Assembly (NCBI GenBank): GCA_030612585.1
Contig: JAUWNP010000225.1
Coordinates: 1-6,723 of the forward strand
Origin: Anaerolineae bacterium
Lineage (GTDB): Bacteria; Chloroflexota; Anaerolineae; B4-G1
Length of the DNA: 6,723 nucleotides
Reading direction: 5' to 3'
The notes beneath the pieces were generated by a model, which was not told the DNA's origin, did no database searches, and worked only from the letters and a program-made list of their open reading frames with translations. Position 1 is the stretch's first letter; every line of letters begins with the position of its first letter. The position numbers and the translations under genes are program-made. Positions 2,735 through 5,196 of this stretch are shown in pieces.

Positions 2735-4057
2735 CTATATCTCCTCCAAACCCAGTTTGAAGAACCGGTTTGGGTTGTTGAACAGCCAATCAGCGGCCAG
2801 CGACAGAGATTCTTCCTCTTCCAGCCACCCCCGTTTGACCAGGCGTGCCAGCGTGCCGGCGATATTCTCCCGTGCGATTTGCAGATGCCCGGCGACAAAC
2901 TCGGGCACGTCGCCGTAATCCCCGCCAAAGCCATGCACTTTGGTATGCGGCAAAGTCAGCACTGACCGCTCCAGCAACTCAGAAGCATAGTCGGGGTCAA
3001 TGATATGCAGCCAGCAGCAGTCGAGGGCAACGTTGGGATAGTTCTTGCCCAGAAAGAGCAAATCGCCCAGGTATGGCCAATTGCCGTGAAATAGATCAAA
3101 GCGCACATCGCGGTGAAGTTCAAGCACCGAGGCCAGGTAGGCGGCGTTGGTCTTGTCCACCCGATTGTAAGCACCTGCCATGTGACCGGTGTGAAGTTGC
3201 ACCGGCAGATCGAGATCACGGGCAAAGCGCATATACTGGTGAAAGAGATAATCATTCAACGGTTTACCCTCTGGCCACCCCAGGCTGTTACGTGGAGCGG
3301 CCAGTATTCGGTTGAACTGTTTCTCTGCCTCTGCTTTAGGCACCAAGTCATAGGAGAGGTTCCGCACGTAGGCTGACTGATCTTTGATGCCGATAGCCCC
3401 GCGTTCCATGCATCGCTCGAACACGATGAACACCGCGTCCAGGTACTCATCCAGTGAGGTGATGTGCCGGTCGGCCAGGGTCCCATAGCAGTCAATCGTT
3501 TCCCAGTTCATGGTAGTTGGGTGCAAACCGGGCAGCGAGATCATCGGCCGCCACTTGTCCGGGAAGGTCTTTTTGCCATCCAGGAAACTGCTCAACCCTT
3601 TGGGCAGCCACCCCAGCACATCCACCAACATCACCTGGATACCAGCCTCGTCAATGGTGCGAAAATAGACCTCTTCGGTTTGGCCGGTCAGTTTCTCGGC
3701 GACACGATCCAACGCCTCCCTGGTCAGTTCACTTTCGCCGTACACGTTCTTGAGCACCAGTTTAGTCACCCGTGCGTAGGCGGTGTGCTCAGTAGCATGC
3801 CACAGTTTCTCAAAGAGAGGCCACTTCTCGTCGGTGGAAACATCCTGATCTTCCAGGCGTGCCACGTCACTATCGCTGATGCCAAAAGCTGCTGAGTGCA
3901 AGTCGCTCAGCATGTAGCCGCAGATCAATGAGGCGATCGGCTCCTTGTAGGGAGGTCGCTCCTCTGGACCGGTCAGGTGTTCGTGACAATCAATGACCGG
4001 CATAGCGTTGATCTGCTCGTACAAACGGTTGAATAGTGGAGATCGAGAATACAACAT
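2735..4057 (-). CDS. amidohydrolase superfamily metal-dependent enzyme (uronate-isomerase-like)
   Basis: A 440-residue TIM-barrel amidohydrolase. Its candidate metal ligands appear in the expected order: DCHEH on strand 1 (His25, His27), GIKD on strand 4 (Lys225, possibly carboxylated), QLHTGH on strand 5 (His289), LFHGN on strand 6 (His324) and GFGGDYGD on strand 8 (Asp380). It resembles the Amidohydro_2 and uronate-isomerase-like group; hydrolysis, decarboxylation or isomerisation are all possible and the substrate is unknown. No signal peptide is seen. I chose the ATG at 4055-4057 because the N-terminus MLYSRSPLFN then leads directly into the first strand. An in-frame TTG at 4073-4075 would add only six residues, starting inside the inserted element. 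An element appears to have displaced the original ribosome binding site, leaving only a weak GAGAAG upstream, so expression may be reduced. The coding sequence itself is intact. Confidence 0.88.
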   Translation of the reverse strand: MLYSRSPLFNRLYEQINAMPVIDCHEHLTGPEERPPYKEPIASLICGYMLSDLHSAAFGISDSDVARLEDQDVSTDEKWPLFEKLWHATEHTAYARVTKLVLKNVYGESELTREALDRVAEKLTGQTEEVYFRTIDEAGIQVMLVDVLGWLPKGLSSFLDGKKTFPDKWRPMISLPGLHPTTMNWETIDCYGTLADRHITSLDEYLDAVFIVFERCMERGAIGIKDQSAYVRNLSYDLVPKAEAEKQFNRILAAPRNSLGWPEGKPLNDYLFHQYMRFARDLDLPVQLHTGHMAGAYNRVDKTNAAYLASVLELHRDVRFDLFHGNWPYLGDLLFLGKNYPNVALDCCWLHIIDPDYASELLERSVLTLPHTKVHGFGGDYGDVPEFVAGHLQIARENIAGTLARLVKRGWLEEEESLSLAADWLFNNPNRFFKLGLEEI

Positions 4058-4063
4058 AGTTTG
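4057..4063. repeat. target-site duplication, left copy
   Basis: TAGTTTG, identical to 4177-4183. It abuts the palindromic element and overlaps the first base of the amidohydrolase ATG. The two copies cannot be extended as a direct repeat in either direction (4056 A versus 4176 G; 4064 G versus 4184 C). Confidence 0.75.
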
Positions 4064-4065
4064 GC

Positions 4066-4075
4066 ATCTTCTCAA
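4066..4075 (+). repeat. left terminal inverted repeat of the element
   Basis: ATCTTCTCAA, the exact reverse complement of 4164-4173. On the minus strand it reads TTGAGAAGAT and supplies the GAGAAG that now lies 10 bases upstream of the amidohydrolase ATG, as well as the ATG of an out-of-frame start (4065-4067, using the neighbouring base). Confidence 0.8.
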
Positions 4076-4089
4076 AAAATTGGGGCGGG

Positions 4090-4114
4090 TGTAGGTCGGA
4101 TTTGCTATCCGACC
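4090..4114 (+). repeat. REP-like unit 1 (GTAG head plus hairpin)
   Basis: A GTAG head (4091-4094) leads into a perfect 8-bp stem, GGTCGGAT (4094-4101) with ATCCGACC (4107-4114), closing a TTGCT loop. REP sequences tied to RAYT (Y1-type) transposases typically have a GTAG or GGAG head followed by a hairpin; the similarity here is by layout only. Confidence 0.7.
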
Positions 4115-4118
4115 GGAC

Positions 4119-4142
4119 GGCGGTTAGCAAAACCGCCCTACA
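4119..4142 (-). repeat. REP-like unit 2, inverted copy
   Basis: Read on the minus strand, this 24-nt unit starts TGTAGG and forms a 7-bp stem, GGCGGTT with AACCGCC, around the same TTGCT loop. It matches unit 1 at 20 of 24 positions. The four differences form two compensating base-pair swaps (stem positions 7/23 and 11/19), so both hairpins stay perfectly paired. Confidence 0.7.
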
Positions 4143-4163
4143 GTCGTCATCCCCCCCTAAATA

Positions 4164-4173
4164 TTGAGAAGAT
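4164..4173 (-). repeat. right terminal inverted repeat of the element
   Basis: TTGAGAAGAT, the exact reverse complement of 4066-4075. In the amidohydrolase transcript this repeat comes first and could pair with the other copy, closing a long stem around the hairpin core. Confidence 0.8.
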
Positions 4174-4176
4174 ACG

Positions 4177-4183
4177 TAGTTTG
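4177..4183. repeat. target-site duplication, right copy
   Basis: TAGTTTG, identical to 4057-4063, and directly next to the displaced Shine-Dalgarno sequence (4184-4190). Confidence 0.75.
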
Positions 4184-4190
4184 CTCCTTT
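4184..4190 (-). promoter_or_regulatory. displaced Shine-Dalgarno sequence of the amidohydrolase
   Basis: Reads AAAGGAG on the minus strand. It now lies 126 bases upstream of the amidohydrolase ATG and precedes no convincing gene start. Without the element and one repeat copy it would sit six bases (CAAACT) from that ATG, an ordinary spacing, so it is best read as the gene's original ribosome binding site. Confidence 0.7.
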
Positions 4191-4281
4191 CATCTCTACA
4201 TAATCCTCTTCGGCGTTGGCGAATCGCAGTGCTTTGGCGTCCATCACCTCAAAGGAACTTTTCATCTTTTCCAGCAGCCTG

Positions 4282-5196
4282 CTAGAACTGCCTCGTCCAG
4301 GGATAGCCAATGCAGTTCTTCTGGAACCCAATCGCTTCATAGAACGGCTGGCCTGAGCCGACACGGGCCTTTTCCGCACCGAGGGCAGATATCCGCCGGA
4401 TGCCTTCCATCACGACCGCCCTCCCGAATCCCCTGCGCCTGAAATCGAGATGGGTACTGACAGGTTCAAAGAAACCCATCCGATTGTGTTCATCGTACCA
4501 AACGATGCAGGAGGATACAAACTCGCCGCCAGGTCCCACGACATAGAGATCCAGGTCCTTCCGGTAGTCTGGCGCCTTTTGCATTTCCTGGTAGGCGAAA
4601 ACGGTCGCCCACTCTGACGGGTCCCGATGATTGAACCCCAACCCCTGGACTTTGTACCTCTTCTCAAGGTCGTTCTCCTGCGCCATAGACTGAACGGCAT
4701 ACCCTTCCGGCAATTTCCGCTCAGGCAGTCCCTCGATAACGAACACCGAGTCATATCCAGGATGCTCCACGTCTTGTTGGTAGCCACGCTTTTGAACCAA
4801 CGTCCGAAACGGCTCGGCGTGGTCGTAAACATAGATGCGGAGCGTGTTGTTTTCCTTGTCGGCAAGGGTTTCCTCGGCATAGTCAAGCATCTCGTCAAGG
4901 AGAAAAGCGTATTGCGGATGACGCTGGAAAAAGGCTTCCCCAAACCTGGGTGCCTCTGCGTTCACGACGCCCACAATCTCGTTCTCGTCGTTCTCCCAGA
5001 TACCAACGACTTTTTCCCAGAAGCGGATCTTTTTCTCAATGTCTCCCTCAAACATACTTGGGTGATACCGCGCCCAGTTCCAGCGCTCAAAACCCCAGTT
5101 GTAGGGTTCCGCAGAAGCCAGGTAGGTCTCGACAAGAAAGTCACGAATCCGCAAAAAATCCTGCTCTGGTCTGTACTTTCGAAGTTGTGTTTTCAC
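4282..5196 (-). CDS. GNAT family N-acetyltransferase, tandem-domain
   Basis: A 304-residue cytoplasmic protein with two GNAT-type halves. GNAT enzymes move the acetyl group of acetyl-CoA to an amine. The C-terminal half (about 160-304) has the clear acetyl-CoA-binding motif A, THLDFRRRGFGRAVVMEGI (248-266), preceded by FEPVS and followed by the motif-B-like GSGQPFYEAIGF (280-291). The N-terminal half (about 1-155) has the expected strand and helix pattern and a closing KRGYQ (136-140) but no obvious pyrophosphate-binding loop, so it may be degenerate or structural. The start is GTG at 5194-5196, with GAGGG (5203-5207) six bases upstream; the ATG 13 bases upstream is out of frame. It follows the ABC exporter by 83 bp. 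Substrate unknown: family members modify antibiotics, small metabolites or proteins. Confidence 0.9.
   Translation of the reverse strand: MKTQLRKYRPEQDFLRIRDFLVETYLASAEPYNWGFERWNWARYHPSMFEGDIEKKIRFWEKVVGIWENDENEIVGVVNAEAPRFGEAFFQRHPQYAFLLDEMLDYAEETLADKENNTLRIYVYDHAEPFRTLVQKRGYQQDVEHPGYDSVFVIEGLPERKLPEGYAVQSMAQENDLEKRYKVQGLGFNHRDPSEWATVFAYQEMQKAPDYRKDLDLYVVGPGGEFVSSCIVWYDEHNRMGFFEPVSTHLDFRRRGFGRAVVMEGIRRISALGAEKARVGSGQPFYEAIGFQKNCIGYPWTRQF

Follow-up and report, generated by a model that had tools for sequence, protein, structure and literature searches.

The closest described relatives of the insertion analysed here are IS66 elements of the ISBst12 group. In the excerpted account of ISDge4, a member of this group, a single ORF lies between ends GTGACTACTCAGCA and GTAACTGCTCAGCA, flanked by an 8-bp repeat, CCTCGATG (PMC12898284). 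The table excerpt of PMC3281130 enters ISPpa5a and ISPpa7, both IS66, with an 8 in a column that we read as duplication length. Short non-coding derivatives are described for other families: the passages at hand report a MITE from ISCca4, an IS982 element (PMC9769881), and MITEPsy1, which is tied to ISPsy2 (entered as "IS5?"), generates 4-nt duplications, has proven transposition and in one copy precedes the start codon of a transposase by 14 nt (PMC3189936).

Two further systems bear on the interior and the position of the insertion. GTAG REPs that pair in inverted orientation are described for other bacteria, longer palindromes enclosing REP dimers are noted in Anabaena variabilis and others, and Chloroflexi are reported to carry GTAG repeats (PMC3733652, in part). 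In phage T4 genes 25 and 38, RNA structures shorten the spacing between Shine-Dalgarno (SD) sequence and start codon from 27 to 11 and from 22 to 5 nt, respectively (PMC3014915, section on these genes). In open-licence PMC papers we found no description of IS66-family MITEs, of the present family, or of a MITE insertion at an SD sequence or start codon.

A 112-bp palindromic element parts a Shine-Dalgarno sequence from its start codon

The stretch of DNA analysed (6,723 nt, hereinafter the window) carries an amidohydrolase gene on the minus strand and, directly upstream of its start codon, the following features:

2735-4057, minus strand: amidohydrolase gene, 440 aa, intact, start ATG at 4057; Pfam Amidohydro_2 above cut-off
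4056-4063: gene-side copy of the target duplication, ATAGTTTG, which on the minus strand supplies the AT of the ATG
4064-4175, no strand: IS66-type MITE, 112 bp, non-coding; ends match 116 sampled short copies and L252 995-2860
4064-4075, plus strand: left terminal inverted repeat (TIR), GCATCTTCTCAA (family form GTATC[T/A]TCTCAATA)
4091-4114, plus strand: GTAG-tagged REP-like palindrome, GTAGGTCGGATTTGCTATCCGACC; a similar unit stands alone in L001 at 3417 and paired in G010
4119-4141, minus strand: second GTAG-tagged REP-like palindrome, GTAGGGCGGTTTTGCTAACCGCC, in the opposite orientation and likewise with the loop TTGCT
4164-4175, minus strand: right TIR, GTATCTTCTCAA as read on this strand
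4176-4183: SD-side copy of the target duplication, GTAGTTTG, with one mismatch, at 4176
4184-4190, minus strand: native SD sequence AAAGGAG, now parted from the start codon (anti-SD duplex energies)

The first-pass annotation had described a 113-bp insert with inverted repeats, bracketed by a 7-bp target duplication. Its repeated word TAGTTTG is present at 4057-4063 and 4177-4183, and insert, inverted repeats and duplication all stand; the lengths have changed. Because family members elsewhere start with GTATC (the window copy reads GCATC), we set the element at 4064-4175, GCATCTTCTCAA...TTGAGAAGATAC, and take the duplication, ATAGTTTG/GTAGTTTG, to be 8 bp long with a mismatch in the first position. 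Removing 112 + 8 = 120 bp gives AAAGGAG-CAAACT-ATG, the same join with a six-base spacer that the annotation had obtained by removing 113 + 7 bp. The ends of the element are GTATCWTCTCAATA...GGGG, and its outer inverted repeats span 26 nt at 77% complementarity (4066-4091 with 4148-4173). Its DNA fold is better than that of 200 of 200 dinucleotide-preserving shuffles (z -6.8), and the RNA fold of 4040-4200 likewise surpasses all 200 (z -5.1). A search of viral contigs with a 24-base cargo word gave 0 matches. A 129-codon open frame on the minus strand (3990-4379) crosses the element into the amidohydrolase gene in a different frame; it is kept in frame by the 120-bp insertion, has no Pfam match and is probably a chance frame.

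A protein search with the amidohydrolase returned 40 loci, whose orthologues align from residue 1, in agreement with the annotation's view of the gene as undamaged. The closest (L001, 78% identity; L027, 74%; L002, 73%; L003, 68%) all come from Anaerolineae or Chloroflexota MAGs, and in these four a purine-rich SD sequence lies directly before the ATG, with predicted anti-SD duplexes of -8.1 (L001), -11.5 (L027), -10.2 (L002) and -11.0 kcal/mol (L003). Two other scored orthologues give -9.0 (L006) and a weaker -6.0 kcal/mol (L004). The window yields -8.2 kcal/mol for the rejoined flanks and -2.7 kcal/mol for the sequence now preceding the ATG; the median of 2000 random 25-mers from the window is -3.4 kcal/mol.

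By eye, the element is absent from the 150 bases upstream of the 21 of 40 orthologues whose upstream sequence was printed. When all 40 loci were searched for exact matches to the end 10-mer, one unrelated place came up, in L035. The proposed comparison with relatives is thus borne out as far as the four nearest orthologues go, which have the SD sequence adjoining the ATG and no element. The literal empty site was not seen among the orthologues, since their upstream DNA does not align to the window by eye.

The element belongs to a high-copy family in Anaerolineae

The ends of the window element are found in many copies in Anaerolineae. An exact match to the 14-base end is present in 56 of 298 genomes drawn from this class, with a single match in all for the reversed control. 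In the genome of orthologue L001 (G001) we counted 178 occurrences of the end word TTGAGAAGATAC at no more than one mismatch (reversed control, 7), and a second genome (G009) holds 463 exact copies of GTATCWTCTCAA (control, 0). The window copy is thus a short (112 bp), transposase-free member of a family abundant in other genomes.

We assembled 116 distinct short copies, each with both of its flanks, at 99 loci: the window and, by our reading, 98 in 23 genomes. The sample is composed of listed and fetched loci and is not random. Some pairings in it are due to chance or nesting: three members have interiors of 5-8 bases, and two of these three lack a duplication. The flanking 8-mers agree with 0 mismatches in 67 copies and 1 in 20, so that 87 of 116 carry an 8-bp repeat at 0-1 mismatch, as against 0 of 116 for control 8-mers taken 12 bp further out. 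The remaining 29, with at least two mismatches, speak against the family rule. Exact repeats of 5, 6, 7, 8, 9 and 10 bp flank 3, 1, 2, 67, 5 and 1 copies, respectively. Among the 20 one-mismatch copies, the window included, the mismatch falls at least once on each of the eight positions, as expected for an 8-bp duplication mutated later. A later, cargo-biased set gave 0-1 mismatch at 13 of 22 places and is not pooled with the 116 because some copies are repeated in both.

The flanking repeat in the window is not a product of chance, and the family consensus of the ends is GTATC[T/A]TCTCAATAa-nnn-GGGG. The further copies with different flanking repeats that the annotation had proposed to look for are therefore abundant (the 87 above), and together with the orthologues lacking the element they support its central proposal of a small non-autonomous element inserted between SD sequence and ATG. 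We infer one insertion event at this locus.

An IS66-type transposon shares the ends of the family

Contigs of G138 and G070 start at a fixed distance inside the element and carry coding sequence, as is typical of a longer element present in many copies. Transposase tails of 45 residues and shorter had no usable family match. Searched against 36 genomes, the 45-residue tail had matches (E up to 1) in 22, from which full frames were reached. A complete element in G125 (L252 995-2860, 1866 bp) has matching ends and a perfect 8-bp duplication, AGTGACAT. It is filled by a single open frame (1117-2787; 556 codons counted stop to stop, the start codon not being fixed) with no accessory ORFs. The encoded protein matches Pfam PF03050 (DDE_Tnp_IS66) at 49.2 bits (cut-off 23.1) and scores 119.8 with the NCBIfam IS66 equivalog NF033517, below the cut-off of 180. 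A second element, in G034 (L256 1155-2989), has the same ends and a perfect duplication, TGCAGATG, with a stop within the transposase. Two other loci, L253 and L255, hold IS66-type genes between end-like words and showed no matching duplication.

Judged from its sequence, L252 is the likely autonomous partner of the window element. Same ends, an 8-bp duplication and a partner with an IS66-type transposase lead us to read the insert as a MITE of an ISBst12-like, single-ORF IS66-family element. With good confidence, we take it to have been mobilised in trans into the SD-ATG spacer, where it probably weakens initiation and does not abolish it. Movement in trans would be the work of the IS66 transposase.

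Two other candidates were rejected. DDE_Tnp_1 (IS4/IS5 type) genes give 12 matches in 7 of 8 genomes, and the sole full end pair at these loci belongs to a 110-bp MITE copy in L113 and does not delimit the gene. The long end pairs in G009 contigs (L151 and L160) enclose ordinary genes (rho-like, fructose-bisphosphatase-like and RNase H-like, named by eye) and no transposase. In L160, 10352-11854, two IS66-type copies, one of them cut off, are surrounded by three occurrences of the word ATTTAAGC, with the RNase H-like gene (named by eye) between the two copies; the arrangement looks like a local rearrangement.

The insertion is expected to weaken initiation

Among the 87 duplicated copies, 12 loci (the window included) have a possible start codon opening at least 90 codons within 15 bp of an element end. 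We counted an SD sequence as parted if the rejoined flanks reach -6 kcal/mol or better and the present value is weaker by more than 3. Three copies satisfy this rule: the window (ATG, -8.2 to -2.7), L093 (TTG, -6.6 to -2.6) and L167 (TTG, -6.6 to -2.7). The window is the strongest case and the only one with an ATG; the TTG starts of the other two belong to doubtful genes. L187 (ATG, 405 codons) just misses the rule, at -5.7 to -2.7.

In the predicted mRNA, the base of the hairpin stem is perfectly paired from 4175:4064. The native SD sequence is open at 0.08-0.68, and the AUG at 0.92 (A), 0.42 (U) and 0.21 (G). If the element loops out, the distance from SD to AUG becomes 8 + 6 = 14 nt, compared with 6 originally. 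From this model, translation of the amidohydrolase is expected to be reduced and not absent, residual initiation at the old SD sequence being possible because the looped-out hairpin leaves 14 nt to the AUG.

The same fold allows a second reading, in which the insertion has become a working split ribosome-binding site whose hairpin unites SD and AUG, so that translation is maintained or tuned and the fold is selected. The perfectly paired stem base, the partly open SD sequence, the exposed A of the AUG and the intact gene are all consistent with such a site, and T4 genes 25 and 38 work in this manner, according to the part of PMC3014915 devoted to them. So is the mismatch in the duplication. 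Since the target ends in AT and the element starts with G, insertion would create a second ATG six bases after the SD sequence, followed by a stop after six codons, and the mismatch, which turns this ATG into ACG, eliminates it. The mismatch thus fits removal of a decoy start, although one base proves nothing. Against a working split site, the collapsed spacing of 14 nt exceeds the 5 and 11 nt known from the proven T4 sites, the openness of the second and third bases of the AUG reaches just the values given above, and strong folding is general to MITEs. We regard this reading as unlikely and retain weakened initiation as the preferred one.

It is also conceivable that the insertion has no effect that matters, either because another initiation signal is used (the TTG at 4075, an SD-like word in the TIR, or leader-independent initiation) or because the gene is dispensable. 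The TIR does contain GAGAAGAT 8 nt before the ATG, and the TTG at 4075 is in frame. We rejected both as replacements: GAGAAGAT is fully paired in the predicted mRNA and its -2.7 kcal/mol falls short of the random median (-3.4), whereas the TTG has no SD sequence (+0.4). A neutral insertion is accordingly very improbable.

The interior is a pair of REP-like palindromes

The interior of the window element consists of two inverted GTAG-tagged palindromes with the common loop TTGCT and different stems. It has traits of GTAG REPs and BIMEs, namely a GTAG tag beside a hairpin, inverted pairs and free repeats in genomes. The TGTAG-hairpin-hairpin-CTACA plan, or one near it, recurs with other stems in G164 (L195, L307) and G020 (L065, L075, L125). 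Grouped by shared 7-mers, the 116 interiors fell into 30 clusters (40, 31, 10, 6, 3 and 2 members, and 24 singletons), which include plain hairpins, inverted hairpin pairs and some interiors resembling intergenic repeats. In L126, L146, L134, L316, L323 and L325 the middles between IS66 ends are other repeats (CACCACAGAGACAC-like, CACGAATT-like, GGTTGAGCTTGTCGAA-like and GACCGCAGAGGTC-like), some of them free in G009.

Across 338,655 bases of G009, pattern matches to four interior types fall inside and outside end pairs 26/2, 3/0, 2/0 and 5/0 times (both strands counted). Two repeat types that form interiors in other genomes fall there 0/2 and 0/3 times. These counts therefore establish free repeats for some interiors only. 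We infer that repeats have been captured into IS66-ended elements.

The minus-strand REP unit of the window, sought at no more than two mismatches in 13 genomes, is present in 5 of them, at 20 places in all. An enclosing IS66 end pair (ends at up to three mismatches) is found at none of these; 4 have a one-sided end-like word and 9 an inverted partner. At eight of these free places (L281, L283, L285, L288, L290, L292, L295 and L299) a start codon with an SD-like word follows after 14-58 nt, and several of the eight are just a few bases ahead of the SD. REPs are said to sit mostly downstream of genes.

REPs of this kind raise a third alternative, that a RAYT tyrosine transposase moved the REP pair as such, and that the IS66-like ends are incidental. 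In its favour, the same REP unit occurs without IS66 ends at all 20 free places, and Y1_Tnp (RAYT-type) genes are found in 7 of 10 genomes (18 matches, 17 above cut-off). Yet 0 of the 18 Y1_Tnp loci in these 10 genomes carries the REP of the window (7 have some GTAG hairpin), the duplication lies outside the IS66 ends and not at the REP pair, and 116 copies follow the same rule with other interiors. The lack of the window's REP at Y1_Tnp loci is why we do not file the interior as a RAYT-mobilised REP. We rejected a RAYT as mover of the window element, an extremely improbable role that the place of the duplication already disfavours. At one locus (L266 1923-2203, in G010), a Y1_Tnp gene has three nearby GTAG hairpins unlike the window's REP. 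On the sequence evidence, we read the window element as an IS66 MITE enclosing a REP pair.

Scarcely credible is an ancestral leader RNA of the amidohydrolase gene (an attenuator or cis-regulatory hairpin, with no insertion): the predicted RNA fold is strong, but the element is missing upstream of the orthologues inspected, as described above, Rfam gives no match at the gathering threshold, and the same ends stand at hundreds of unrelated places, copies that refute this reading.

Discussion

In the mechanism that we propose, an IS66 transposase supplied in trans would recognise the GTATCWTCTCAATA...GGGG ends and insert the element into the spacer that separates AAAGGAG from the amidohydrolase ATG, duplicating 8 bp. 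Its middle would be a BIME-like inverted pair of GTAG REP palindromes, and in the mRNA the element would fold as one long hairpin separating SD and AUG. Initiation would then most likely be weakened and not abolished, the looped-out hairpin allowing residual use of the old SD sequence at 14 nt.

A broader and unlikely extension is that IS66-type fixed ends with exchangeable palindromic interiors, REP pairs included, constitute a mobile hairpin cassette, and that one insertion made a new split ribosome-binding site driving and tuning translation. With its constant ends and variable palindromic interiors, this high-copy family offers a natural series for how MITEs gain their middles, and lets one ask whether REP pairs spread by riding within DDE transposons. 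The window copy is a natural test of how much hairpin distance between SD sequence and start codon is tolerated with translation continuing.

Set beside known systems, the family resembles the ISBst12 group of IS66, for example ISDge4, in its single transposase ORF, DDE_Tnp_IS66 domain, 8-bp direct repeat and ends of the form GTnnCTnCTCAnnA. It differs from ISDge4, as portrayed in the excerpt, in that the window copy has no transposase, the end sequence is GTATCTTCTCAATA and there is a whole MITE family with varied interiors (PMC12898284). With MITEPsy1 the window element shares a length of about 100 bp, inverted repeats, a non-coding interior and a target duplication, whereas the 4-nt duplications, the link to ISPsy2 and the proven transposition recorded in the cited part of PMC3189936 set MITEPsy1 apart.

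The interior is like GTAG REPs and BIMEs in its GTAG tag, its 20-40 bp palindromes and their inverted pairing. In contrast to the REP dimers covered by the passages of PMC3733652, however, the outer palindrome of the window element is formed by the paired ends of a transposon whose transposase family is identified and which is flanked by a target duplication. Finally, as in the split sites of T4 genes 25 and 38, a predicted RNA hairpin lies between SD and AUG and could shorten their effective spacing; the T4 sites, in the portion of PMC3014915 that treats them, are native phage mRNA of proven function, whereas the window presents a transposon insert with a predicted effect.
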